Shown: positions 6,422 through 14,010 of the stretch, piece by piece
Position numbering within the stretch: position 1 is the first letter of the stretch
How the letters are laid out: every line of letters starts with the position of its first letter
From: a virus
Direction: 5' to 3' (one strand)
Length of the DNA: 24,383 nt
IMG/VR virus record: IMGVR_UViG_3300045010_000867
Span: 1-24,383 of that record
Position numbers and translations under genes: made by a program
Notes under the pieces: generated by a model
What the model was told of the DNA's origin: nothing
Seen by the model: only the letters and a program-made list of their open reading frames with translations
Databases searched by the model: none

Positions 6422-6450
6422 ATTATACCTACATCGCAAAAAGAAATCAA
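6422..6450 (-). promoter_or_regulatory. sigma70-like promoter of the 61-aa gene
   Basis: On the minus strand TTGATT (6450-6445) is followed after exactly 17 bases by a perfect TATAAT (6427-6422). Transcription would start near 6415, giving a leader of about 35 bases that contains the strong AAGGAG site. The element lies in the 116-base gap between the nuclease gene and the 61-aa gene. Confidence 0.75.
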
Positions 6451-10454: not shown

Positions 10455-12548
10455 CTAACTGTTATCTTTAATAAATTTGACTTCACAAGAATCAGTAGTG
10501 CAGTATCGCTCACCAATTGCATCCGCAGCCATTCCTGCATATATGCCTGTTAGGTCAATCGGGAAAAGCTTTTTTTCAGATTCAAGATATTCTTCTTCGG
10601 ATATTTGTATGTAGGGCATTTGTGGATACGTATTGTTTCCGCTTGGTAAAAAAGAAACAGTTTTTAACTGTCCGTCGTGCATGTGTAAAACTGTGCCGAT
10701 ATACTGAGCTTCTGTATCTCTGTTGAAAGAAATCGTTACGGAAACGGAATTGTCTGACCAGTATCTTTGAGCGGTCGTAGCTAAAGCCATTTTTTCAAAA
10801 ATAGTTACATCTTTTTCTGATCTAACTGCGTGAGATTTAATTGGAAAATACACTACTGAGGTAGTGTTGGGCGACTCTGCAGCTGGCTCAACTTTATAAT
10901 TTGCCATTCTGAATAAGGGCAGCATTGGATCTTCGTTAGAAAATCTAATTGTTCTATTAAAAAATTTACCACCTGGTGTCCAGTGAACACCGGGAGATTC
11001 CCCAGCAAGAATTGAAACGGTTCCAGACGGCTTTACTGTGGTCATCTTTATGGATTCACGAATACCCAACCACTCGGAATAAACATTATCATATCTTTGA
11101 ATCGTTTTATACCCCTGATTCATCCACTCTTTCAAGATTGGGATGCCACAATGGTCGGTGAAGTCTGCCACACCAGACATTGAAGTGCCAATACGACGAT
11201 TTCTTTGCATAATTGCATTTGTTTCTTCCCAATGTGTAGGCAATAGCGTGACGGTTTTTGCGTACAGATAGGCAAACTTAAGCGTTCTTTTATAGTCTTC
11301 TAGATTTTCGTGTCTTCCCAAATAGGTTTCCACAAGCGTGCAGCATTCATATGACTCAAGAGACTGTTCTGCACAGGGGTTATATCCAGCGACTCTATGG
11401 TCTTTGTTATTTTGCGGATCAATAAGTCTTCCATATTTCCTGGATACGTCCATCCAAATAACTCCAGGTTCGCCATTCAGGGATATGCCCTCAATAATTG
11501 GGGTAAGATCGGCGCCCACCTCAGTTTCTACAGAATTATTAGACATCCATCCCCAACCTGGAGCATGGGGATCATACGAATTACGTTCGGGAAATTTGTC
11601 TTTGTTTTTTAAGTTTAAAAATTCCTTATCGTTCAGTCTTCCTATTAAAAGTTCAGCTGAGCGGCGAACGTTTCCAGAAACAACACATACGCCAATAAGA
11701 TTACCTATATCGGCTATATCAATTCTTGTAAGTTTAGAACCAGCTCTATCGTTAAATATTTTATTTATGTGATGATGCAATTGCGCAAGAGGTTCGTGAC
11801 CAGCCGCAATACCACCAAATGTCTTTATTGGTGTGCCAGACGGTCTTATCTGAGAATAGTCAAAAAGATACTTTGGTTGGTTCTCTTTTAGATAAGAATT
11901 AAGAAGCAAATTGAGAGACTCAACCCAACCCTCTCTGGTGTCGGGTATCGTATGTGTTATTTCTTCTCCATTCGGCTTATATATTACAAAGTCTTTATCG
12001 GCGCCTTTATCATCAAATCCAACCCCGACTCCCAACATTGAGGCTTCCATTAAAAATGCGAATGGTCTAGCTGGATTTATTTTGGTCATTTCTGCGGTTG
12101 AAACAAAGGCGCAATTTTGAAGAGCCGCTGAATTTTTCTGCACATTTACGATATGGGTCCCCATTGCCCATAAACCACGACCTGGGGGGGTCCATTTTAA
12201 ATTAAATAAACGGTCAAATGCTTCCTTGGCGCTTGCCTGGGCTTTTGCGTCATTCCAGGGAAGACGATTTTTTTTGCAGTGATCTTTTTGAAGAGAGTAG
12301 GTTCCATTGATTACTCTTTCGCAGACATCGATCCATGTTTCTTTAGAGCCGTTTTCTTTCAATCTACTGTATGTCCTAAGAAACGTTATTTCACCAACAC
12401 TATTACCACCTGCGTCTTTGTAGCCAAAAGGAGACGATTTTAATCTATATCCATCAACAAATTCTTCGCTAATTCTAAAAGAAAACATACCAGCTTTTAT
12501 TGATATAGGTGATAGATCTGGATTTGGGTCTTCAATTTCTTGTGTCAT
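10455..12548 (-). CDS. nrdJ: class II adenosylcobalamin-dependent ribonucleoside-triphosphate reductase
   Basis: The 697-residue protein aligns by motif with the monomeric Lactobacillus leichmannii-type enzyme (about 740 residues). C146 in LQNCAF and C403 in YECC form the active-site redox pair. N390-P-C392-A-E394 carries the thiyl radical cysteine and its partner residues. The C-terminal C683-x4-C688 matches the C731/C736 shuttle pair. Also recognisable are SGNVRRSAELLIG, NRRIGTSMSG, TVKPSGTVSILAGESPG and the QRYWSDNSVS block. It reduces ribonucleoside triphosphates to dNTPs with adenosylcobalamin and thioredoxin-like reductant, needing no oxygen and no second subunit. ATG 12548 has AAAGGAG six bases upstream. 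It follows the 233-aa gene by 11 bases, so the two are in one transcript. Full set of catalytic residues, so likely active. Confidence 0.95.
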   Translation of the reverse strand: MTQEIEDPNPDLSPISIKAGMFSFRISEEFVDGYRLKSSPFGYKDAGGNSVGEITFLRTYSRLKENGSKETWIDVCERVINGTYSLQKDHCKKNRLPWNDAKAQASAKEAFDRLFNLKWTPPGRGLWAMGTHIVNVQKNSAALQNCAFVSTAEMTKINPARPFAFLMEASMLGVGVGFDDKGADKDFVIYKPNGEEITHTIPDTREGWVESLNLLLNSYLKENQPKYLFDYSQIRPSGTPIKTFGGIAAGHEPLAQLHHHINKIFNDRAGSKLTRIDIADIGNLIGVCVVSGNVRRSAELLIGRLNDKEFLNLKNKDKFPERNSYDPHAPGWGWMSNNSVETEVGADLTPIIEGISLNGEPGVIWMDVSRKYGRLIDPQNNKDHRVAGYNPCAEQSLESYECCTLVETYLGRHENLEDYKRTLKFAYLYAKTVTLLPTHWEETNAIMQRNRRIGTSMSGVADFTDHCGIPILKEWMNQGYKTIQRYDNVYSEWLGIRESIKMTTVKPSGTVSILAGESPGVHWTPGGKFFNRTIRFSNEDPMLPLFRMANYKVEPAAESPNTTSVVYFPIKSHAVRSEKDVTIFEKMALATTAQRYWSDNSVSVTISFNRDTEAQYIGTVLHMHDGQLKTVSFLPSGNNTYPQMPYIQISEEEYLESEKKLFPIDLTGIYAGMAADAIGERYCTTDSCEVKFIKDNS

Positions 12549-12559
12549 TATATACTCCT

Positions 12560-13261
12560 TTAATTAACGGCTAATATTTTTACAAATTTTGGATTAAGCT
12601 TTTCTATTTCTTTAGATTTTATCTTTTTAATTTGGTCAAAAGTATATACTTTATATATTTCTCTTTCAAAAAAATATCCGCTTCTCCAATTAAAAACTTT
12701 ATCAACAGCGTTTGCGTGATTCGTAAATATATTTGATATCACAGCTCCGCCATATATTCTTATGAGATTCTGCATTTTTTTTGAAACAACGCTTTTAGTC
12801 TTTTCGTTAACTGCACTAGTGCTTTCCGAACGGGCATATAACCAATTATATGCCTGCCTTGTTATTGGAGAATAATCTATGGGATCTATAACTCCCATCG
12901 CAAGTAGTTCTTTATGATTTTTTTGTATTTCAATATCCTCTTTTACGATATTCCTAAACAGAGAAAACCAATCTTTTTCCTTGTACTGATTCCACGTTGG
13001 ACACCAAAATAACATTAAGTGAACTGGATCTGGTATATTTGTTTTTTCCAATGTTGGCAGCAGAGCAGTGCACGAGATGGCTCTTTTGATATCTTCTCTG
13101 CTTATGTCTACATTTTTATTTTTGTTTTCAAAATTAGTCCAAAGTTTGGATATATAAGTTTTCCAATCAGCTTCACCTATATAGATGTTGAGATATTTTT
13201 CCGCTACATCAATGGGCAATACGCCATCTTCAGCAACTGATATCATTTGCCCTAAAATCAT
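12560..13261 (-). CDS. hypothetical protein, 233 aa, first gene of the metabolic/replication block
   Basis: I do not recognise this protein. It is mostly helical and soluble, with tryptophan-rich stretches (LMLFWCPTWNQYKEKDWFSLF at about 83-103, in two parts) and a C-terminal lysine-rich helix (FDQIKKIKSKEIEKL). A middle segment ARSESTSAVNEKTKSVVSKK is polar and could be a linker. No catalytic motif, cysteine cluster or membrane helix is seen. ATG 13261 has AAGGA eight bases upstream. It is the first gene after the triple hairpin at 13328-13395 and 11 bases ahead of the RNR gene. Its place at the front of the block would suit an early regulator or a nucleotide-metabolism accessory, but this is context only. 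The 66 bases between the last hairpin and this ATG must hold a promoter or be read through; I find no convincing -35/-10 pair there. Confidence 0.75.
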   Translation of the reverse strand: MILGQMISVAEDGVLPIDVAEKYLNIYIGEADWKTYISKLWTNFENKNKNVDISREDIKRAISCTALLPTLEKTNIPDPVHLMLFWCPTWNQYKEKDWFSLFRNIVKEDIEIQKNHKELLAMGVIDPIDYSPITRQAYNWLYARSESTSAVNEKTKSVVSKKMQNLIRIYGGAVISNIFTNHANAVDKVFNWRSGYFFEREIYKVYTFDQIKKIKSKEIEKLNPKFVKILAVN

Positions 13262-13327
13262 CTACATAATCCTTATTAAATGTATCGGAAACTAAATAAA
13301 CCCATATATCAAATCCTAAATTAACAA

Positions 13328-13348
13328 TCCCGCCCTTTTGGGGCGGGA
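13328..13348 (-). terminator. intrinsic terminator at the end of the structural block
   Basis: An exact eight-base GC-rich inverted repeat (TCCCGCCC / GGGCGGGA) with the five-base loop CAAAA on the transcribed strand is followed by UUGUUAAUUU, a moderately U-rich run. It lies about 75 bases after the stop of the 195-aa gene and before the 233-aa gene. Confidence 0.75.
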
Positions 13349-13349
13349 C

Positions 13350-13365
13350 AAATACTTTTGTATTT
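13350..13365 (-). other. small stem-loop just upstream of the terminator
   Basis: AAATAC and GTATTT form a six-pair stem with loop AAAA on the minus strand. It ends one base before the terminator stem. Alone it is weak, but it is the middle of three stem-loops in a row. Confidence 0.45.
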
Positions 13366-13367
13366 AT

Positions 13368-13395
13368 TTCCGCGCTGATATTATACCAGCGGGAA
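13368..13395 (-). promoter_or_regulatory. palindrome with a consensus -10 at its centre, possible promoter/operator or hairpin
   Basis: CGCTGGTATAATATCAGCG is a 19-base palindrome with a single mismatched pair. As RNA the flanking UUCC/GGAA extend the stem with one bulged base. Its centre contains a perfect TATAAT (13385-13380) preceded by TGG, an extended -10. GTCACA sixteen bases upstream (four of six matches to TTGACA) could be a -35. The core GGTATAATATCA is identical to that of the promoter at 6422-6450. It lies between the stop of the 195-aa gene and the terminator, so a transcript from it would be only about 45 bases unless it reads through. Confidence 0.45.
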
Positions 13396-13422
13396 CTGTT
13401 ATGTGACTAATTCTGGATAAGA

Positions 13423-14010
13423 TTAAAGAGCTTTTGCGGAAGGAACTCCTTTGTACTCTCCAACTTTATTGCGACCGTATGAAGATTCCACATTTAACTG
13501 ACCATATCCAGATTTAAATATCGTTGCGCTAGGCACTCCGTCAAACAAATCGTTGTTATAGAAACTATAATATACTGTTCTCTTAGAATGACCATAGCCC
13601 GCATTGAAAGCGTTGGCCGAAGTGACTCCATCAAATACATAATTGCTGTAAAGACTATAATTGGCTGATCTATCTACGTGGCCATAGCCAGAAGTGAACA
13701 CGCCCAAAACACCCTTGTAGGTGTGTGGCCTAAAACGTGCGCCTTCGTAAGCGGCGCCGTTTTTAAATGTTCCCGAAAGTGGATGAACATAAAGCGAAGT
13801 TCCTTTAAAAATTTGCGACAAAAGCACATTGCCAGGATGGCTGCCGGTCCCGGGAACATGATTGTTATCTGGGGCACCGTCTAATACGTGACTATTCGCA
13901 AACAGCGGATAGAACGAATAGTTGCCCGCAGTACCCTTGTGGGGATTGACCATTCCCGAAGAGGACCTCCCTTTCAGAACTGGTCTTGGACCAACATAAT
14001 ATGTAGCCAT
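13423..14010 (-). CDS. repeat-built structural protein, 195 aa (candidate virion decoration or fibre component)
   Basis: The protein is made of repeats of about 30 residues ending in a [FYL]-[KD]-G turn, at G14, G45, G70, G100, G128, G158 and G188. The clearest copies are 107-136, 137-166 and 167-195, each opening with [SA]GYG and containing YSxYxxxxFDGVxSA. It is rich in G, Y, S and N and has very few charged residues and no cysteine, like beta-structured virion surface proteins. No family is recognised. AAGGAG lies nine bases before the ATG, and the gene is richer in G+C than its neighbours, so high expression is plausible. It is the last gene of the structural block, directly before the triple hairpin. 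The 68-base gap upstream holds a TATACT (14087-14082), a weak promoter candidate overlapping the end of the previous gene. Confidence 0.8.
   Translation of the reverse strand: MATYYVGPRPVLKGRSSSGMVNPHKGTAGNYSFYPLFANSHVLDGAPDNNHVPGTGSHPGNVLLSQIFKGTSLYVHPLSGTFKNGAAYEGARFRPHTYKGVLGVFTSGYGHVDRSANYSLYSNYVFDGVTSANAFNAGYGHSKRTVYYSFYNNDLFDGVPSATIFKSGYGQLNVESSYGRNKVGEYKGVPSAKAL
13426..13692 (-). repeat. three tandem 30-residue coding repeats in the 195-aa gene
   Basis: The last 89 codons contain three in-register units of 30, 30 and 29 residues. Each has [SA]-G-Y-G at its start and [YF]-[DK]-G-V near position 20. Similarity is at protein level; the bases differ at many third positions, so the repeats are old and kept by selection. 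Four weaker units precede them. Confidence 0.7.

Follow-up and report, generated by a model that had tools for sequence, protein, structure and literature searches.

A conserved, hairpin-embedded promoter element and predicted terminator between the structural and nucleotide-metabolism genes of uncultured freshwater phages

Introduction

Between two gene blocks of a phage genome, three consecutive stem-loops surround and follow a promoter-like sequence, and the question raised by this locus is whether they form a regulated promoter, the end of a messenger RNA, the gene of a small RNA, or some combination of these. The window, i.e. the whole stretch of DNA analysed in the present study, is a 24.4-kb fragment of an uncultured tailed phage that carries nearly all of its genes on the minus strand; a freshwater origin is given for this phage and for the group of its relatives, which are also uncultured. 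On the minus strand, the structural block is closed by a 195-aa ORF (13423..14010) and followed, after 161 intergenic bases, by a 233-aa orphan gene (12560..13261), a class II ribonucleotide reductase (RNR; 10455..12548), which is the next gene of the presumed operon, and ThyX. A preliminary description of the locus placed a replication operon downstream; the genes directly downstream actually belong to nucleotide metabolism (RNR, ThyX), and a helicase is encountered further on. The 195-aa protein contains internal repeats of the type YSxYxNxxFDGVxSAxxF, which are conserved in relatives, and a family search gave no match for it.

No DNA similarity of the window to phage records was found. The hosts are probably Actinobacteria, because WhiB genes are present in relatives (4 of the 24 checked, exactly the four records longer than 200 kb) and the closest RNR is that of phage DSL-LC01 (78%), an Actinomycetia phage, in which a model of the element described below finds no match. 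One of the relatives carrying WhiB (G025; 205,907 bases; loci L296-L306) is encoded mostly on the plus strand over its first ~150 kb and on the minus strand over the remainder; its final 40 bases are found again at position 88, which would agree with a complete genome bearing a terminal repeat of about 127 bases.

Results

All three stem-loops of the preliminary description are present, and the relevant strand is the minus strand, in the same direction as the neighbouring genes; a plus-strand reading was ruled out by these genes and by the asymmetry of the G-U pairs, which favours the minus sense. First, hairpin 1, the palindrome of that description (13368..13395, minus strand), falls in the 3' UTR of the 195-aa ORF. 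In the RNA sense, bases 13395-13384 pair with 13380-13368, with one G-U pair and one bulge, and the extended -10 element TGGTATAAT (13380..13388, minus strand) occupies the 5' arm and the loop, so that the hairpin encloses the -10. The fold reaches -14.7 kcal/mol, a stability that none of 200 shuffles matched (z -4.55), and it is the most stable hairpin surrounding any of the 33 TATAAT sites on the minus strand. Second, a six-pair stem-loop follows (13350..13365, minus strand), with the sequence AAATAC-AAAA-GTATTT read from 13365 to 13350. Third, a GC-rich hairpin with a T-rich tail (13317..13349, minus strand) has the form of an intrinsic terminator and would be common to the structural operon and to a short RNA; its stem, TCCCGCCC-CAAAA-GGGCGGGA (13348-13328), comprises eight Watson-Crick pairs and one G-U pair, and it is the best terminator-like site of the scanned region, with a T-run that is only moderate in the window (TGTTAATTTA). 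Folded as one minus-strand RNA, the whole three-stem region is far more stable than its shuffles (z -5.2), and no Rfam family was found above the gathering threshold in the window. The core of the palindrome had also been equated with that of a promoter at 6422-6450. The 12-base identity is real, but the likeness is confined to the -10 consensus and ATCA, and that site has neither the TG nor a hairpin (z -0.33); the shared core is therefore mostly -10 consensus.

The conservation of the element was followed through the 233-aa gene, which always lies directly downstream. A search with the 233-aa protein gave 36 close contigs, a profile extended these to 239 in IMG/VR, of which 80 were kept, and the removal of duplicates left 49 distinct elements. 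The motif TGnTATAmT was present in 49 of 49; it was located by regular expression, and its letter-perfect invariance is thus partly by construction, but it is not by construction that every distinct locus except one had such a motif. In the exception, a more distant contig (L295), the promoter is absent and the terminator is kept. This contig (PWLF01000138.1), which carries the 233-aa gene, is filed under a Bacteroidales MAG and is probably a misbinned phage contig. The order in the relatives is an upstream stop codon, the hairpin with the extended -10, a leader, the terminator hairpin, usually a TTTTATAGGTTT-like box, a ribosome-binding site and the start codon, and this synteny, with the motif upstream of the 233-aa gene, holds at 41-83% protein identity. 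A covariance model scored strongly once per contig in close relatives, where the element was expected, and more weakly in distant ones, and a collection-wide pattern scan with the sequence of one subgroup returned only contigs already collected. An exact search of viral contigs for GGTATAATATCAGC was also tried and was unspecific among the matches listed. No description of the element was found in the literature. Two loci (L031 and L032) match the 233-aa gene over 700 nt, and no single frame translates the gene of L032, which suggests a frameshift or an assembly error in these contigs.

The motif itself looks like a genuine host-type promoter in these phages. When the ORF starts following TGnTATAmT were collected from G025, from another long relative (G007) and from the window, 9 of the 35 lay 6-7 nt past the motif and one at 8 nt, none was observed at 0-5 or 9-20 nt, and the remainder lay at 21-56 nt. 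Such leaderless genes follow a pattern that is familiar in actinobacteria (e.g. PMC3898074). Since their start codons stand 6-7 nt past the motif, transcription is predicted to begin with roughly the seventh base past the -10, near 13373 on the minus strand. The assignment to the extended -10 class is consistent with the occurrence of the motif in every distinct element and with the spike of start codons behind it, the position of +1 being a prediction; no -35 is conserved among the elements. Within 13240-13440 there is a single consensus promoter position. Elsewhere in the window, thyX appears to have a leaderless promoter of the same kind, TGATATAATataactATG (10443-10426, minus strand), at the end of the RNR gene, and several ORFs of G007 and G025 have the same spacing between motif and start.

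Hairpin 1 was then considered in the two senses in which a palindrome may be conserved, as paired RNA or as a DNA dyad. The preliminary description would have been weakened by a palindrome without conservation or compensatory changes in relatives; the palindrome proved to have both. In the alignment of close relatives, five pairs had changed on both sides, a number that none of 500 shuffles reached (1.4 in these), and a slid-partner control on the same alignment gave none or one. For example, columns 17/33 of hairpin 1 hold G-C in the window, G-U in L004 and A-U in L003; the pairs of stem-loop 2 likewise change on both sides in the close relatives that form the group of the window, and this stem is absent in distant ones. 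In a wide alignment (A1), covariation was weak, with one pair changed on both sides, because the arms of the hairpin shift register, and the test of a single structure was replaced by lineage-wise tests together with the close-relative alignment. For 29 lineages of less than 80% identity, the best stem enclosing the -10 was compared with that obtained from shuffled flanks, TGnTATAmT being held fixed. With G-U pairs allowed, the mean z was 1.84 (Fisher combined p 3.5e-11); in the mirrored control, in which A-C was allowed, equivalent to G-U on the opposite strand, z was 0.78 (p 0.019), and the paired difference between the two was significant at p 8.7e-5. At 65 other TGnTATAmT sites, from two long relatives and the window, z was about 0 in all modes. 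Because the lineages share ancestry, the p-values can be only approximate, but the elements stand well apart from the controls. Poor hairpins by an ungapped score were observed in L036, L254 and L267.

The predicted short RNA of the window (13318..13373, minus strand) is about 54 nt long. Across the 29 lineages, a GC stem with a T-rich tail is always present (29 of 29), beginning at +10 to +37 (median +19) and giving an RNA that would end at about +50, with predicted lengths of 44-73 nt; the leader from the promoter hairpin to the terminator measures about 9-36 nt in relatives. Because its 5' arm is upstream of +1, hairpin 1 lies outside this RNA, and only transcripts that enter from the structural genes can fold into it. 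An antiterminator, in which a GCGG at the 5' end of the RNA would pair with the CCGC of the terminator, was considered and rejected, as GCGG is not shared by the elements generally and all predicted folds contain the terminator stem.

Between the terminator and the start codon of the 233-aa gene lies the conserved TTTTATAGGTTT-like box (13298..13312, minus strand), which is kept even in L295, where the promoter hairpin is missing. The box might be a second promoter for the 233-aa gene or an element of its mRNA. As a general phage promoter, TTTTATAGGTTT was not upheld, its copies being in no clear excess when G025, G007 and the window were compared with a Markov shuffle. For the 233-aa protein, no PHROG, Pfam or convincing solved-structure relative was found, and a search of phage records gave none. 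Its AlphaFold model is confident (pLDDT 90) and all-helical, and its one strong match by structure is another protein from an uncultured phage. In the PDB, region 2 of sigma-H aligns best (Z 4.2 over 62 residues), and the fold weakly resembles sigma region 2 or cyclin-like folds. A Z of 4.2 is within the chance range for helical proteins, and the protein was not accepted as a sigma factor; a possible role in transcription would fit.

Discussion

Herein, we propose that the unit acts as a promoter-terminator gate ahead of the 233-aa gene and RNR, with a terminator shared with the structural operon, a proposal to which we give about an even chance. First, polymerase arriving from the structural genes would transcribe the 3' UTR, producing hairpin 1 and the terminator, and would stop there. 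Second, the extended -10 inside hairpin 1, with a start near the 3' foot of the hairpin, would fire a ~54-nt RNA lacking the hairpin into the same terminator, as the promoter motif and the spacing of the leaderless genes suggest. Third, the unit would most likely be the attenuated leader of the 233-aa/RNR operon, which would be turned on when polymerase passes the terminator, either by leakage or through a putative antitermination factor. A gated leader is favoured because the unit occurs as a single copy at a fixed place, because there is no other consensus promoter between, and because in one relative (L290) the terminator is followed by the start codon after 29 nt, a gap that leaves little room for another promoter. 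The moderate T-run of the window and the TTTTATAGGTTT box, which could be a second promoter, speak against the gate, and the box is the main cause for caution. The preliminary description had offered a promoter giving either a ~45-nt RNA that ends at the terminator or the leader of the downstream operon, and this part is retained in the proposal, with an extended -10 and an RNA of about 45-55 nt; the notion of the -10 as the centre of an operator is not.

Alternatively, the unit might be an autonomous gene for a trans-acting small RNA, a stable RNA of ~50 nt that would pair with phage or host messages and take its 3' end from the shared terminator, while the downstream gene would be expressed from a promoter at the box. 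The unit has its own promoter and terminator and a short stable fold, stem-loop 2 covaries in the group of the window, and the conserved box could serve the downstream gene. However, the sequence from +1 to the terminator is not widely conserved across lineages, stem-loop 2 is missing in many of them, and the unit is always tied to the same downstream gene. In addition, no complementary target of at least 11 nt was found for the short RNA in G007 besides the locus itself, which, together with the unconserved leader, argues mildly against a trans-acting RNA. We consider this explanation unlikely.

It has also been suggested, in the preliminary description, that the stem-loops are a stacked 3' end of the structural mRNA, and this probably also applies, with hairpin 1 forming in the read-in RNA. 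As a complete explanation, in which the hairpins serve to protect the late mRNA or to process it and the -10-like sequence plays no part as a promoter, it appears unlikely. The RNA-sense selection of hairpin 1 and its place in the 3' UTR of the structural operon are consistent with such a role, but the bases paired with TGnTATAmT differ whereas the motif itself does not, it moves between stem and loop, and it behaves as a promoter elsewhere in these genomes. Thus, the motif appears to be constrained as DNA. The hairpin, in turn, is selected in the sense of the coding strand, a comparative result that points to RNA transcribed through from the structural operon or, with lower probability, to the coding strand as single-stranded DNA. 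Within the proposed gate, hairpin 1 would be a structure of the read-in transcript that stabilises or processes the 3' end of the structural mRNA, and not the operator of a repressor.

A repressible promoter with its -10 at the centre of the operator of a dimeric repressor is very improbable: the inverted repeat is centred on the -10, and palindromes that differ between phages would be expected with co-evolving repressors, but a DNA dyad should show no strand bias in its mismatches, whereas on the coding strand they take the form of G-U instead of A-C, and neither the register nor the loop length is constant, which points to an RNA hairpin rather than to a protein-binding dyad. Equally improbable is a primer or initiator RNA that would open the DNA or prime replication at an origin, despite the single copy per genome, the short promoter-terminator RNA ahead of DNA-metabolism genes and the RNA-based origins of actinobacterial prophages (PMC7157519), as no clear turning point of GC skew was found at the element in G025 or G007 and no iterons were noted.

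In addition to the gate, a further function of hairpin 1 might be conceived, although we regard it as distinctly unlikely, namely that it allows polymerase of the late operon to pass the strong promoter embedded there, the DNA promoter being furnished with its own RNA clearance hairpin. A consensus extended -10 in a transcribed region could hold an elongating polymerase through sigma, and the folding of the nascent RNA over the -10 segment would block backtracking or the formation of an R-loop.

Several known systems share features with the proposed gate. In T7, promoters adjoin RNase III hairpins, and a promoter and an RNA hairpin thus occur at one place between transcription units, as here; T7 uses its own polymerase, whereas in the present element a host-type -10 would be part of the hairpin itself. 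The lambdoid PR'-tR' region, the site of Q antitermination, likewise consists of a phage promoter whose short RNA ends at an intrinsic terminator ahead of an operon, and its -10-like elements also act on the elongating polymerase (PMC4604602). Unlike PR'-tR', the element has its -10 within a hairpin that forms in the RNA from upstream and is predicted to give an RNA of only 44-73 nt, and its operon is one of nucleotide metabolism; no Q-like gene was identified here by a non-systematic search. Small-RNA genes with their own promoter in a 3' UTR (e.g. MicX; PMC9438474) resemble the unit in having a promoter at the end of the upstream unit and a shared terminator, but the present unit is phage-borne and shorter, its leader is not conserved across lineages and its promoter lies in a conserved hairpin. 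The RNA-based origins of cluster A mycobacteriophages are also intergenic noncoding RNAs of actinobacterial phages, but they lie beside parABS and serve prophage replication (PMC7157519), neither of which was seen here. In comparison with known promoter-terminator leaders, the distinctive feature of the candidate gate is that its promoter is enclosed by a conserved RNA hairpin belonging to the upstream transcript.

Thus, a conserved control element outside Rfam has been revealed in a large group of freshwater phages that are uncultured and whose hosts are probably Actinobacteria, and its comparative signature combines promoter constraint at the DNA level with pairing at the RNA level within the same 30 bases. 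If the proposed reading is true, the element would illustrate how two operons are kept apart and gated in such phages, and would provide a compact test case for promoters that lie within transcribed, structured RNA.
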